Source: Catenulispora acidiphila DSM 44928
GTDB lineage: Bacteria; Actinomycetota; Actinomycetes; Streptomycetales; Catenulisporaceae
Reading direction: 5' to 3'
Assembly (NCBI RefSeq): GCF_000024025.1
Contig: NC_013131.1
Span: 2,046,001 to 2,110,000 of the forward strand
Length of the DNA stretch: 64,000 bases
Shown: positions 53,058 to 57,614 of the stretch, in pieces
Position numbering within the stretch: position 1 is the stretch's first letter
How the letters are laid out: each line of letters opens with the position of its first letter
The notes under the pieces: generated by a model
Databases searched by the model: none
The model's input: the letters and a program-made list of their open reading frames with translations, nothing else
What the model was told of the DNA's origin: nothing
Translations under genes and position numbers: made by a program

Positions 53058-53759
53058 ATGCTGAAGCGGGCGGCACGCGGCACCGAGAGCTACCTCCGCA
53101 GCGCCCCCGGCACCTACCTCTGGCTGCTGATCCTGCTGGTCACGACCGCCATCCTCAGGCACGTCAGCCCGCACACCGAGCACTGGATCCTGGAACGCCG
53201 CAGCACCAACATCCACTACCTGATGGAGGACCCGCTCCGCGTCCTGATCCAGTCGGCCCTGTGGATCGACGGCGGCAGCTGGCTCTTCTACGCCGCCCTC
53301 TACACCCTCTTCCACGCCCAAGCCGAACGCTGGCTGGGCACCTGGCGCTGGCTCGCGGTGGCCCTCATCAGCCACGTCCTGGCGACCTACGTCAGCGAAG
53401 GCGCCCTGGCCTGGGCGATCCACAACGGCACAGTCCCGCAGTCCAAGCGCTACACCCTCGACTACGGCGTGAGCTACGCCCTGGCCGGCGTGATCGCAGT
53501 CCTCGCCTACTGGTGGCCCCGCGGCTGGATGCGCTGGGTCTACGCAGCCGCCGTCCTGGCCTTCTACGGCCAGGCGATGCTGCGCGGACGCACCTTCACA
53601 GACGTGGGCCACTTCACCGCCACCCTGGTCGGACTGGGGTGCTACCCCCTGACGCGCGGCTGCCCGTCGCCGATGCGGCGCGGGTGGCGCTGGCGCGGGT
53701 TGGTGGCGCCGCCGCCTTTCGGGGTGGTCGGTGGTCGGGGCTTCGGCGGTCAGAACTAG
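53058..53759 (+). CDS. Rhomboid-like membrane protein (paralogue B)
   Basis: A 233-residue protein closely similar in pattern to the 44288-44890 protein: APGTYLWLLILLVTTAI, STNIHYLMEDPLRVLIQSA, GSWLFYAALYTLFHAQAE, RWLGTWRWLAVALISHV, DYGVSYALAGVIAVLAY and FTDVGHFTATLVGLG. The Ser in GVSYALAG and the His in VGH are kept. The last 35 residues are a basic Gly/Arg tail absent from paralogue A. Its stop overlaps the convergent pseudokinase gene's stop by 4 bp. Confidence 0.82.
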   Translation: MLKRAARGTESYLRSAPGTYLWLLILLVTTAILRHVSPHTEHWILERRSTNIHYLMEDPLRVLIQSALWIDGGSWLFYAALYTLFHAQAERWLGTWRWLAVALISHVLATYVSEGALAWAIHNGTVPQSKRYTLDYGVSYALAGVIAVLAYWWPRGWMRWVYAAAVLAFYGQAMLRGRTFTDVGHFTATLVGLGCYPLTRGCPSPMRRGWRWRGLVAPPPFGVVGGRGFGGQN

Positions 53760-56700
53760 TGGGTCGAGGTGGCGGTGCTGGTCGGCCCGCCGGCGCCGCC
53801 GCTGGTCCCGCCGCCGGTGCAGTCGGGCAGCCCCAGAATCCCCGTGGAGCAGGTGCTCGAGGGCGTGGAGGCGCTGCTGCTCGAGTTCTGGGACGAGCTG
53901 GTCGGCCCTGTCGACGTCTCGCTGGAGGAACTGTGCGTCGGCGTCTCATCGCTGGAAGAGTGCGATGAGCTGCTGGGGGAGGACGTGTGGCTCTTGCTGC
54001 GCGTCGGAGTGGTGGTCGAGTGGTGAGCACTCGGCGCGCTGCTGACCGACGTCGTGTCGGAGCCGTTGCTGGTCCCCGTCGGCGTCGTCGGCGCGGCAGT
54101 GGCCGCCGGCACACTGGCGGAGGGCGTATCGCCCGGCGCCCCACCCGTCCCCTGCGGAGCCTTCCCCGACCCGCCGAGCACCACCGCGGTGGCACCCGCC
54201 ACGAGCAGCACGGCAGTCGTCACCGCCCCGACCAGCGTCTTCCGCCGAGGCCCGCCGGCACCGCCGGGACCCCCCGGCGCACTGCGACGGGGGACGTCGA
54301 AGTCGTCATCGTCATCATCGTCGTCCGCGACGGCAGCAGCAGCACTCGCGGCAGCCGCACCCTTCCCGACATCCCCGTCAACCTCCGCGGGCACCTCATC
54401 GAGCGTCCGCGTCGCCTCCGACTCGAGCGTGTTGTCCCGATCAGGATTGAGCACCTGCGTATGGTGCGCATCAACACCCACCGGCTCGGCAACCCCCGGC
54501 CGGAACCAGTCATCCGGCGCACTGGTCTGCACCGGCGCCTTCGGCTCCTCAACATCCGGCCGCGGCATACTCGGCAGACTCACAGCGAAGGCGGACAGCG
54601 AGCGCGGAATCGTCGGACTCGGCTTGGCGGGGATGACCCAGTCGTCTTCGAAGTCAGAGGGGCTGGAGGATTCGGGCTCCGGTTCCGGCTCCGGATCCGC
54701 TTCTGAACCTGCTTCAGCCTCGGCCGACTCAGACGCTTCGGCTTCGGCCTCAGCCTCAGCTTCCGGCTCGCCCTCAGCTTCTTTCGCCTCGCCCTCAGCC
54801 TTAGCTTCCGCCTCGACCTCAGCTTCCGCCCCCAGCTCGGGCTCAGCTTCCGGCTCAACATGCGCCGCCGGAGCAAACGCATCAAACGCAGAAAGAAGCT
54901 CGCTGCTGTCCTCGATCAGCGACACATAGTCGGAGTCGGCATCCTCATCGGCGAGCACATCGGACTCGGAGTCGGCCTCGGCCTCGGACTCCGACTCGGA
55001 TTCGGACTCGGACTCGGATTCGGACTCCGACTCGGATTCGGACTCCGCCGCCACCGGATCGCTCGACTCAGCGACCACATCATCGCCCGCCTCAGCCTCA
55101 GCCTCAGCCTTTGCTTCAGCTTCAGCCCCAGCTTCAGCCCCAGCTTCAGCCCCAGCTTCAGCCCCAGCTTCAGCCCCAGCTTCAGCCCCAGCTTCAGCTT
55201 CAGCTTCCTCAGGCTCCTGCTCCACGAAAGCGTCGGACCAGACACCCGAACCGACCTCAGCACCGCTCTCGTCCCCAGCCGCCTCCGCACTCGGCGAATC
55301 GGCATCCGGCGTCAGCTCGTCCGCAGCAGCATCTTCCGGCTCGGCACCATCAGTCTCCGGCTCATCCCAGTGCCCACTCACCGGCTCGGCATCGACCTCC
55401 GCAGCCGCTCCCCCCGACCGGTCGGCAAACACGTCGAACCCACTCGGCGTGTAAGGGGCACCCCCCGCATCCGTCGCCCGCACAGCCCGCGCACCATCGA
55501 ACGCCGCCAGCACATCCGCCTCAGCGCCGCCCTCAGGCTCCGCCTTGCCGGCCCTCGAGAACCAGTCATGGTCCTCATCGCCCTCGGACTCACCCTCCGC
55601 AAGCGATTCAGCTCCAGCGACCTCGTCAACTCCCGCAGCCTCATCAGCCCCGACGCCCGATCCGGCTCCGCTGACCTCGCCAGATCCCGCGCCCGCACCA
55701 ACTCCGGCGCCCTCGTGGACCTCCGCGACCTCATCAGCCGCGTCCTCAGCCCTCACAGCTTCAGCCGCCTCGGCCTCGGCGCGCGCCACCTCTGCCGCCT
55801 CGGCCTCGACCCTCGCAGCTTCAGCCGCTGCCGCCTCGGCCGCTGCCACTTCAGCCCGCTCTACCTCGGCTCCCGCCGCCTCGACTCTCGCAGCTTCAGC
55901 AGCTGCCTCGGCCCGCGCGACCTCGGCCGCTTCAGCTGCCGCCGCCTCGACCCGCGCAGCTTCAGCCGCCGCCTCAGCTCGCGCCACCTCGGCTGCCTCG
56001 GCCGCAATCCTTGCCGTCTCAGCTGCCTCAGCCTCAGCCCGCGCCGCTTCAGCTGCCGCCGCCTCGACCCGGGCAGCTTCAGCCGCCGCCTCAGCCCGCG
56101 CTACCTCCGCTGCCTCAGCCTCAGCCCGCGCCGCCTCAACCTCCGCACCCTCGCCGCCGAAGCCCTCGCCCGCAGCCTCCTCGCCCCCGCCCAGCAGCGC
56201 CTCATCGATCGGCTCGCCCATCGGCGGCGGCATCTCCGCCTCGCCGTCAGCCGCAGCCGCAGCCAAAGCCCCAGCCTCCGCCACCGGCGCGCCGTCCCCC
56301 ATTCCGAGCAACGCCTCGTCGATCGGCTCCCCGACCGGCGGCGCCTCGGCCCGCCCCGCCGCTCCCGCCAGCTCGACGCCCTCGGTGCGCGCTGCCGCCG
56401 CGGCCCAGCCGCTCAGCAGCGCGCGCCCGCGCTGCTGCCAGTCGGTGCCGTAGAGGGTGCCGGCGGTGGCGGTGACCTCGTCGAGGAAGGTGTGGGGGGT
56501 GGCCGGGCGGTGGGTGGGGTCGGCGGCCATGCCGTGTTGGACCAGGGGGCGGAGTTCTTGGGGGGCGAATTCGGCGATGATCTCCGCGTATTCGTGGAGG
56601 GCGGCGAGGTCGTCGCGGGTGGCGGCGACGAAGGGGGCCTCGTTGGTCAGGCATTCGAAGAAGACGGCGGTGGCGCTGAAGACGTCGCTGACTTCGTCGG

Positions 56701-56959
56701 CTGTGGCGCCTTGGAGGCGCTCGGGTGCCAGATAACTGGGGGAATTGGGGATGAAGGGGGCGCCTGATTCGTTGAATCCGGTCAGGGCGATGCCCCCGGA
56801 GCCGTCCACGCGGACGTGCTCGGGGCGCACGTCGCCGTGCACCGCGGCCAGGGTCACCAGCATCCCGGCCAGCACCGAGGCCGCGGCCTCCGGCGCCATC
56901 GCTTCTGACTCCCGCAGCACCGCGCGCAGCGACACGCCCTCGACCAGCCCGTTCCTCAC
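53756..56959 (-). CDS. Giant low-complexity pseudokinase-like membrane protein, N-lobe missing
   Basis: A 1,067-residue protein. Residues 1-175 look like the C-lobe of a bacterial Ser/Thr kinase: AAVHGDVRPEHV (39-50) for the catalytic loop, TGFN (60-63) where DFG should be, YLAPERL (76-82), SDVFSATAVFFECLTNEAPF (91-110). With no N-lobe, no VAIK lysine and no metal-binding Asp, ATP-dependent catalysis is unlikely. Residues 240-400 are Ala/Glu-rich coiled-coil-like repeats, 560-760 are EAGA and ESES repeats, a membrane helix (LVGAVTTAVLLVAGATAVVL) lies near 900, and a Ser/Thr-rich tail ends the protein. A GTG starts the frame; TGA closes it about 60 bp upstream, so the N-lobe is truly absent. 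Confidence 0.75.
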   Translation of the reverse strand: MRNGLVEGVSLRAVLRESEAMAPEAAASVLAGMLVTLAAVHGDVRPEHVRVDGSGGIALTGFNESGAPFIPNSPSYLAPERLQGATADEVSDVFSATAVFFECLTNEAPFVAATRDDLAALHEYAEIIAEFAPQELRPLVQHGMAADPTHRPATPHTFLDEVTATAGTLYGTDWQQRGRALLSGWAAAAARTEGVELAGAAGRAEAPPVGEPIDEALLGMGDGAPVAEAGALAAAAADGEAEMPPPMGEPIDEALLGGGEEAAGEGFGGEGAEVEAARAEAEAAEVARAEAAAEAARVEAAAAEAARAEAEAAETARIAAEAAEVARAEAAAEAARVEAAAAEAAEVARAEAAAEAARVEAAGAEVERAEVAAAEAAAAEAARVEAEAAEVARAEAEAAEAVRAEDAADEVAEVHEGAGVGAGAGSGEVSGAGSGVGADEAAGVDEVAGAESLAEGESEGDEDHDWFSRAGKAEPEGGAEADVLAAFDGARAVRATDAGGAPYTPSGFDVFADRSGGAAAEVDAEPVSGHWDEPETDGAEPEDAAADELTPDADSPSAEAAGDESGAEVGSGVWSDAFVEQEPEEAEAEAGAEAGAEAGAEAGAEAGAEAGAEAEAKAEAEAEAGDDVVAESSDPVAAESESESESESESESESESESEAEADSESDVLADEDADSDYVSLIEDSSELLSAFDAFAPAAHVEPEAEPELGAEAEVEAEAKAEGEAKEAEGEPEAEAEAEAEASESAEAEAGSEADPEPEPEPESSSPSDFEDDWVIPAKPSPTIPRSLSAFAVSLPSMPRPDVEEPKAPVQTSAPDDWFRPGVAEPVGVDAHHTQVLNPDRDNTLESEATRTLDEVPAEVDGDVGKGAAAASAAAAVADDDDDDDDFDVPRRSAPGGPGGAGGPRRKTLVGAVTTAVLLVAGATAVVLGGSGKAPQGTGGAPGDTPSASVPAATAAPTTPTGTSNGSDTTSVSSAPSAHHSTTTPTRSKSHTSSPSSSSHSSSDETPTHSSSSETSTGPTSSSQNSSSSASTPSSTCSTGILGLPDCTGGGTSGGAGGPTSTATSTH
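54983..55192. repeat. Coding tandem repeats (Ser-Glu and Glu-Ala-Gly-Ala) in the pseudokinase gene
   Basis: Two arrays: at 54983-55046, 6-bp units alternating GACTCG/GATTCG (Ser-Glu dipeptides), and at 55121-55192, six 12-bp units of TTCAGCCCCAGC (Glu-Ala-Gly-Ala on the minus strand). Both are in frame and prone to length change. Confidence 0.9.
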
Positions 56960-57035
56960 GCAGGCCTGTTTACCTGATTGCGGGCCGCAACCACAACGTC
57001 TGACCGAACCGGCACGTCACAGACCCGCCCGCGAA

Positions 57036-57066
57036 CGCCCGAGCGCCGTGATCATCGGCTCGGGCG
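57036..57066 (-). terminator. Terminator after the PNPOx-like gene
   Basis: CGCCCGAGC (57036-57044) and GCTCGGGCG (57058-57066) form a perfect 9-bp stem with a 13-base loop, 35 bp after the 57102 stop and upstream of the pseudokinase gene. Confidence 0.7.
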
Positions 57067-57101
57067 CGCGCCGGAGAGCGAAAAACTCCGATCGGCGCCC
57101 C

Positions 57102-57614
57102 TTACCTCAGGACGCTGAGCTCCAGATAGTTCCGCCGTCCGAGGTGCGGCTCGTCGACCAGCCGCAGCCGCGCCACCCGCAGCCGGTACAGACTCGCCGC
57201 TCCCGTCCCCTCCAGATAAGCGGCACGCACCGCCGGGTCGCCCCCGAACGACGGGAACCGCTCCCGATACGCCTCGAACGCCGCCTCCCCCTCCGCCCCG
57301 ACGACCGCCCCGCACTCCCCGCTCAGCTGCATCCCGCGCAAGCCCTCGCCGAACTCCGGCGGCGGCAGCCAGATCGCCGCCGCGGCCTCGGCCCGCTCAG
57401 AGGAGTTCTGCCCGTGTTGCGTACTCGGCTCGCTGACGAAGAAGAGGTCGAATTCACTCCCCACCGCGAAGAACGCCATGTTCGCGTGCGGAGTACCCGC
57501 GGCATCGGCGGTGGCCAGCGACAGGACCATGGTCCCGGCGGCGATCGCCTCGATGCTGGAGGCGATGACGGAAGAGGGTTGCTCAGTGCCTTCGAAACCC
57601 ACGGAGAGCGCCAC
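57102..57614 (-). CDS. Pyridoxamine 5'-phosphate oxidase-like flavin-binding protein
   Basis: A 170-residue split-barrel protein. TMVLSLATADAAGTPHANMAFFAV and FDLFFVSEPSTQHGQN are the FMN-binding strands of the PNPOx-like superfamily; RLVDEPHLGRRNYLEL ends the fold. Whether it binds FMN, F420 or heme is not clear. It is 38 bases downstream of the phosphopantetheinyl transferase gene on the same strand. Confidence 0.83.
   Translation of the reverse strand: MALSVGFEGTEQPSSVIASSIEAIAAGTMVLSLATADAAGTPHANMAFFAVGSEFDLFFVSEPSTQHGQNSSERAEAAAAIWLPPPEFGEGLRGMQLSGECGAVVGAEGEAAFEAYRERFPSFGGDPAVRAAYLEGTGAASLYRLRVARLRLVDEPHLGRRNYLELSVLR

Follow-up and report, generated by a model that had tools for sequence, protein, structure and literature searches.

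The window analysed here, a stretch of 64,000 nucleotides from the soil actinobacterium Catenulispora acidiphila DSM 44928 (positions 2046001-2110000 of a single contig of 10,467,782 bases), carries on its minus strand a gene for a pseudokinase that lacks the amino-terminal lobe (N-lobe) of the kinase fold. The coding sequence (53756..56959, minus strand, counted from the first base of the window) starts with GTG, encodes 1067 amino acids and is supported by its open reading frame and by orthologs. An earlier description of this DNA, made from the letters only (the sequence-only reading), had reported this frame, with a stop and a terminator just upstream. The frame exists as reported and a stop lies in the same frame, 20 codons 5' of the GTG; a scan of 56900-57150 returned no terminator (0 found). 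The conserved core of the protein is composed of a carboxy-terminal kinase lobe (C-lobe), a juxtamembrane motif, a membrane helix and a Ser/Thr-rich tail.

The C-lobe corresponds to residues 1-198 (56366..56959, minus strand) and, from alignment and modelling, extends from helix alpha-D to helix alpha-I, with a further helix at residues 174-193. In Pfam, the whole protein of 1067 residues gave matches to two kinase families only. The Pkinase profile (PF00069) aligned to residues 7-153 through its positions 81-253 of 263 (E 4.5e-6, under the gathering score), and the C-lobe stretches of the four orthologs scanned exceeded that score, every match beginning at profile position 79. When the ten orthologs were themselves made into a profile, it retrieved Mycobacterium tuberculosis PknB, which has a solved structure, with an E-value of 4.4e-15, residue 5 being opposite PknB chain residue 97, which we take to be the kinase hinge. 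The chain thus begins at the hinge, as had been proposed from the sequence, and has no strands beta-1 to beta-5, no glycine loop, no beta-3 lysine and no helix alpha-C. We observed no N-lobe, by eye, in the six-frame translation of the 151 bases upstream, and none is present in the orthologs; this agrees with the statement of the sequence-only reading that no N-lobe is hidden just upstream, and speaks equally against one in another frame.

The structure prediction that this reading had suggested was performed with AlphaFold2. With seven orthologs only, the model was poor (predicted local distance difference test, pLDDT, of 42), yet the helix order of a C-lobe was recovered; when three ordinary kinases joined the alignment, the pLDDT rose to 91.4, with a predicted template modelling score of 0.90, and the C-lobe model matched PknB with a Z score of 20 and a Foldseek E-value of 1.3e-8. 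Confidence in the model is owed largely to the added kinases, and therefore the model shows the fold by homology and does not show that the isolated lobe is stable.

Among the features of eukaryotic-like kinases (PF00069), we identified those of the C-lobe, namely the APE motif (residues 78-80), the alpha-F aspartate (D92) and the late arginine (R151), invariant in the ten orthologs. The N-lobe with its glycine loop, beta-3 lysine and alpha-C glutamate is absent, and the HRDxKxxN and DFG motifs are not preserved. The catalytic loop reads HGDVRPEH (residues 41-48; 56816..56839, minus strand) and GFN occupies the place of DFG (residues 61-63; 56771..56779, minus strand), both exactly as first read. 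In the ortholog alignment, HRD is changed to HGD and the catalytic-loop Lys to Arg in 10/10 sequences (HGDxR), the catalytic-loop Asn is replaced by His in seven and retained in three, and the DFG Asp remains in four and has become Gly in the other six. With no beta-3 Lys, and with the DFG Asp gone in 6/10 orthologs, the protein is a pseudokinase by the definition that we used, loss of at least one of the beta-3 Lys, HRD Asp and DFG Asp, taken from PMC12599244.

A search of ten genomes of the genus, among them this one, returned an ortholog matching from residue 1 in every case, with one copy each and 67-82% identity; the six found in named records belong to Catenulispora species or to metagenome-assembled genomes (MAGs) of Catenulispora/Catenulisporales. 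The nine other orthologs share the same GTG start and none has an upstream N-lobe, which excludes a frameshift or assembly error, the outcome that would have undone the sequence-only reading. Eight of the ten are open from the GTG to the end of the tail, the remaining two leaving the contig end about 220 codons in. Of 147 genomes of the order, ten gave scores of 364-395 bits, and the next best match, at 168 bits, was a complete kinase. The C-lobe is under purifying selection: ratios of nonsynonymous to synonymous substitution rates over codons 8-198 were 0.18, 0.22, 0.24, 0.27, 0.32, 0.33, 0.34 and 0.54 in eight pairs, the highest for the window and L041.

Within this genome, 32 places matched the C-lobe at an E-value of 0.001, and all the other 31 have an in-frame upstream N-lobe, judged by eye, two of them without the beta-3 Lys (VAVR in L067 and VVIT in L002). 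As a list of kinases this search is incomplete, since an N-lobe search yielded two more complete kinases in the genome. In a tree of 28 C-lobes, the ten half-kinases form one clade (support 100/99). Beside them stand complete kinases, as one group, and the Catenulispora pseudokinases that have an N-lobe, as a clade of their own; the tree was rooted for drawing only and does not indicate the parent complete kinase. Among viral contigs, 45 pattern matches included 0 relatives. The pseudokinase made of a C-lobe only was found in one genus only.

The closest kinases are receptor-type: by eye, their full kinase domain is accompanied by a membrane helix and a Ser/Thr tail, and they have one more segment at the C-terminus. 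This architecture and the tree relate the window protein to receptor kinases, as the sequence-only reading had proposed, and supply the relatives with complete kinase domains that it had recommended looking for. Within the order, receptor-type Hanks Ser/Thr kinases of the same wider family (L003, L018, L054 and L055) share with the protein 40-46% identity over the C-lobe and, by eye, a YGxDWxxRG signature after the kinase domain, a single membrane helix and a Ser/Thr-rich stretch. Unlike it, those kinases have a full N-lobe with VAxK, the HRDYKPxN and DFG motifs and the extra C-terminal segment, and the long acidic tether belongs to the window protein and not to them. We also noticed a second clade of Catenulispora pseudokinases (L002, L022, L024 and L025), which share the wider family, the genus and the alteration of catalytic motifs (HRDYQPS or HRDFQPS; GFG for DFG). 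They have lost the beta-3 Lys (V-x-(I/V)-T for VAIK), keep the N-lobe and fall in a separate clade.

Two bacterial systems offer a comparison, both as described in PMC12599244. In mycobacteria, the pseudokinase of MviN/MurJ (ActPs3) is phosphorylated by PknB and recruits FhaA; it resembles the window protein in being an actinobacterial, membrane-tied pseudokinase with possible phospho-dependent recruiting. It differs in having an N-lobe that bears the dimer interface, and the account of its mechanism relies partly on N-lobe features (pocket filling and dimerisation). The window protein has neither this interface, having no N-lobe, nor a fusion to MviN in the Pfam scan. In Firmicutes, the pseudokinase of EssB/YukC likewise sits on a membrane protein and recruits other parts, in this case of type VII secretion, and, unlike the window protein, it retains a degraded glycine loop and hence an N-lobe. 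PMC3014569 describes the HER3 pseudokinase, in which, of the residues for the activator role, those of the C-lobe alone are retained, and which binds its partner kinase through that lobe. A search of the open literature by exact phrases, judged mostly by title and start of abstract, returned no protein kinase described without an N-lobe, and nothing by exact phrase for pseudokinase together with Catenulispora, a result that does not establish that no description has been published.

Between the C-lobe and the membrane, two linker motifs were identified. The first, PPVGEPIDEALL (56306..56341, minus strand), has a GEPID core in the 8/8 complete orthologs; the second copy, PPMGEPIDEALL (56192..56227, minus strand), is missing from the three MAG orthologs, apart from a partial GEPIS in one of them. 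They are followed by an Ala/Glu-rich stretch (residues 264-415; 55715..56170, minus strand), largely private to this genome, a (GAEA)6 run (55118..55189, minus strand), private to this genome among complete orthologs, and an (ES)10 run (54986..55045, minus strand), of which complete orthologs have shorter versions only. The three are tandem repeats, and nothing as long exists at their place in the other seven complete orthologs, where shorter acidic low-complexity segments of their own occur. The juxtamembrane motif, DWVIPAKPSP..PRSLSAFAVSLPSMPRP..PVQTSAPDDWFRPGVAEP (54482..54643, minus strand), is conserved in 8/8 complete orthologs and terminates in DDWFRPG (DNWFRPG in L044). It is single in this genome (next match at E 0.14), and in a draw of 396 genomes of the phylum, which seems to contain no other genome of the genus, it was present in one, the window's own.

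The membrane helix KTLVGAVTTAVLLVAGATAVVL (residues 907-928; 54176..54241, minus strand) comes after GGPRR in the ortholog alignment; GGPRRK precedes it in the orthologs (GGPPRK in L039). By the positive-inside rule for membrane proteins, the basic residues at this position point to a C-lobe on the inner side of the membrane and a tail on the outer side. The Ser/Thr-rich tail (53759..54175, minus strand), probably extracellular, is kept in 8/8 complete orthologs and contains a Cys loop, CSTGILGLPDC (53819-53851, minus strand); a two-Cys loop is found in 5/8 complete orthologs and in none of the three from MAGs. The juxtamembrane motif and membrane helix are identical in a mean of 5.0-6.2 of 7 orthologs, against 3.5-6.7 for the C-lobe. 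The repeats, membrane helix and Ser/Thr tail of the sequence-only reading are thus all present, with the repeats mostly private and outside the conserved core. The observation itself is real, and the terminator and the prominence given to the repeats are the only points on which the letters had been misread. The scaffold or envelope tether that the sequence-only reading had suggested stays a hypothesis.

A near-invariant block of 64 nucleotides (56937..57000, minus strand) covers the start codon, with 97-100% identity in nine of the ten genomes and 88% in the tenth, and one copy in each. Setting aside L017, which has an indel, 37/42 bases before the GTG and 18/18 after it are invariant, and further upstream 11/20 at -62 to -43 and 1/40 at -102 to -63; if all ten are anchored ungapped, only 12/42 bases before the GTG are invariant, because of L017. 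Silent variation was seen in 0 of the first six codons, start included, against 68 of the 93 invariant degenerate codons later in the gene (Fisher p 0.0007). We identified a -35-like TTGTGG (56991-56996), an 18-base spacer and a -10-like TAAACA (56967-56972) that ends seven bases before the GTG, and the block is perhaps the promoter of a leaderless mRNA. A sigma-70 consensus scan of 56900-57150 found no promoter (0 found), so the promoter assignment draws on conservation and spacing only. The block also contains an inverted repeat, TTGCGG-C-CCGCAA, and is likely a promoter or operator of such an mRNA.

Other roles for the block were rejected. A regulon is not indicated, since each of two elements, TTGTGG-N16-20-GGTARAC and the inverted repeat of 13 bases, has a single place in the genome, a weak result as a reversed control also gave one match. 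A structured RNA is not supported by folding stability, which is not unusual (z of -0.95 for the window and +1.38 for L016), nor by Rfam, without matches up to E 1. An upstream coding extension is disfavoured: before the GTG, the kinase frame stays open over 19 codons in 9/10 orthologs, with no start codon there in the window, and in L017 a stop stands only four codons away. We also noticed a 12-codon GTG frame (56956-56994, minus strand), whose TGA overlaps the pseudokinase GTG (GTGA). Its three changed sites among the nine orthologs without the indel are all replacements, and L017 loses its stop. Taking both frames together, we prefer an element acting at the DNA level.

The next gene upstream is PNPOx-like (57102-57614, minus strand) and its end lies 142 bases off. 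It co-occurs with the half-kinase in the same 10 of 14 genomes of the family and adjoins it in all nine orthologue loci compared, being cut by the contig end in L044. On the other side, a Rhomboid_2 gene (53058-53759, plus strand) is convergent with the pseudokinase gene and overlaps its stop by 4 bases; it adjoins it in 7/8 loci that reach far enough, the exception being the MAG locus L039. The Rhomboid_2 copy of G009 has one TAG within the match. A Pfam scan of seven neighbours identified Rhomboid_2, M50B, Asp-Al_Ex, PNPOx-like, 4PPT, aldo-keto reductase and DUF3043, with no type VII secretion genes among them, as an EssB/YukC locus would have. For the Asp-Al_Ex permease, tblastn gave fragmented matches at L036 3821-4580 and L037 12174-12905, which may be an effect of the search or a disrupted gene. 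Gene order around the half-kinase is kept across the genus. In three genomes of sister genera, the 17-19 kb around relatives of the rhomboid gene held no matches to the other window proteins tested, so that no syntenic ancestor was found there.

We propose that the protein is a membrane-anchored pseudokinase consisting of the C-lobe alone and acting as a docking hub, a reading, its function and partner included, to which we assign a probability of about 0.5. Among the ten orthologs 102 residues are invariant, and 31 of these are shared with at most one of the 11 N-lobe relatives compared, an upper figure because the cut stretches of the relatives hardly cover the termini. Outside the termini they include G42, V44, R45, D117, E123, Y124, I128, E130 and F131, the last six of which map to alpha-G and the alpha-G/alpha-H loop. 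Residues 1-30 and 91-120 of the C-lobe are identical in a mean of 6.7 and 5.8 of 7 orthologs, respectively. Without the glycine loop, beta-3 Lys and alpha-C, ATP would not be held as in kinases. The C-lobe would instead offer a docking surface at the alpha-G and alpha-G/alpha-H region, where several of the invariant residues absent in relatives lie, and perhaps hold a cytosolic partner at the membrane, such as a sibling receptor kinase, a substrate or an FHA-type reader. The long acidic tether would supply reach, its conserved short motifs may form a second docking site, and the Ser/Thr tail would sit in the cell envelope. Precedents for such docking are MviN with FhaA and EssB/YukC, both with an N-lobe, and HER3.

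Several observations weigh against this proposal. The HRD Asp is retained in 10/10 orthologs and the DFG Asp in 4/10; within the C-lobe, conservation is lowest over residues 61-90, which include the activation segment; the model reached high confidence only after the addition of ordinary kinases; and the conserved gene order is shared by the neighbours, which move together, so that it names no partner.

A regulator of the sibling receptor kinases, in which the C-lobe, like a truncated receptor, would associate with an intact kinase so as to block, bias or activate it, is the strongest rival, although we consider it unlikely. This genome encodes three relatives that are 42-43% identical to it over the C-lobe and have receptor architecture; their post-kinase signature, YGxDWxxRG or nearly so, is retained in the half-kinase. 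HER3 (PMC3014569) sets the precedent of a pseudokinase acting on a kinase through the C-lobe. However, the number of siblings at E 1e-20 varies from 1 to 5 per genome (draft assemblies), against one half-kinase in each.

It is less likely still that the C-lobe is a passive folded plug and that selection acts on an envelope tether made of membrane anchor, acidic tether and envelope tail. The juxtamembrane motif and helix show conservation similar to that of the C-lobe and the tail is present in every complete ortholog, as this explanation would have it, but a plug does not account for the strong conservation of residues 1-30 and 91-120, nor for residues fixed in the C-lobe that the relatives do not have.

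We regard as very improbable a split kinase, in which another polypeptide provides the N-lobe and the pair is catalytic, in spite of the retained HRD and DFG aspartates. A search of this genome with the N-lobes of the family (E 1e-5), which could miss distant free N-lobes, gave 15 matches, all in frames of at least 351 amino acids; 13 stand beside C-lobe matches and the other two are complete kinases with HRD and DFG. In the four orthologs aligned with the N-lobe relatives, the six residues directly before HGD are deleted and the activation segment is about 4 residues shorter; the other six orthologs match these four in length at HGD. Moreover, at the position that we presume equivalent to PKA Leu173, the floor of the adenine pocket, Arg or Ser is found in 7/10 orthologs and Leu in 3/10, whereas nine of the 11 N-lobe relatives have Leu and the two exceptions, one with Val and one with Arg, belong to the pseudokinase clade. 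A decaying pseudogene or a sequencing or assembly error, which the long repeats and the two frames that run off contigs might have suggested, is refuted, repeat copy numbers aside, by the eight orthologs open from GTG to tail, the purifying selection and the conserved start block.

Returning to the docking hub, its more specific form is tentative, and we hold it with less confidence than the general proposal. Under it, selection throughout the genus would have retained the half-kinase as an interaction domain in its own right, a docking site at the membrane for sibling receptor kinases or for the targets of these. The catalytic loop and alpha-G/alpha-H surface would have been reshaped for this role, and the N-lobe would be dispensable in bacterial kinase-fold signalling. 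The two bacterial membrane-linked pseudokinases compared, MviN and YukC, both have an N-lobe (PMC12599244). What the half-kinase suggests is that binding to other proteins, instead of catalysis, can be reason enough to retain half of the fold. If true, a conserved protein with a C-lobe only would mean that evolution can split off the docking half of a kinase and retain it, and this protein would be a simple natural construct for testing recognition by the C-lobe surface.

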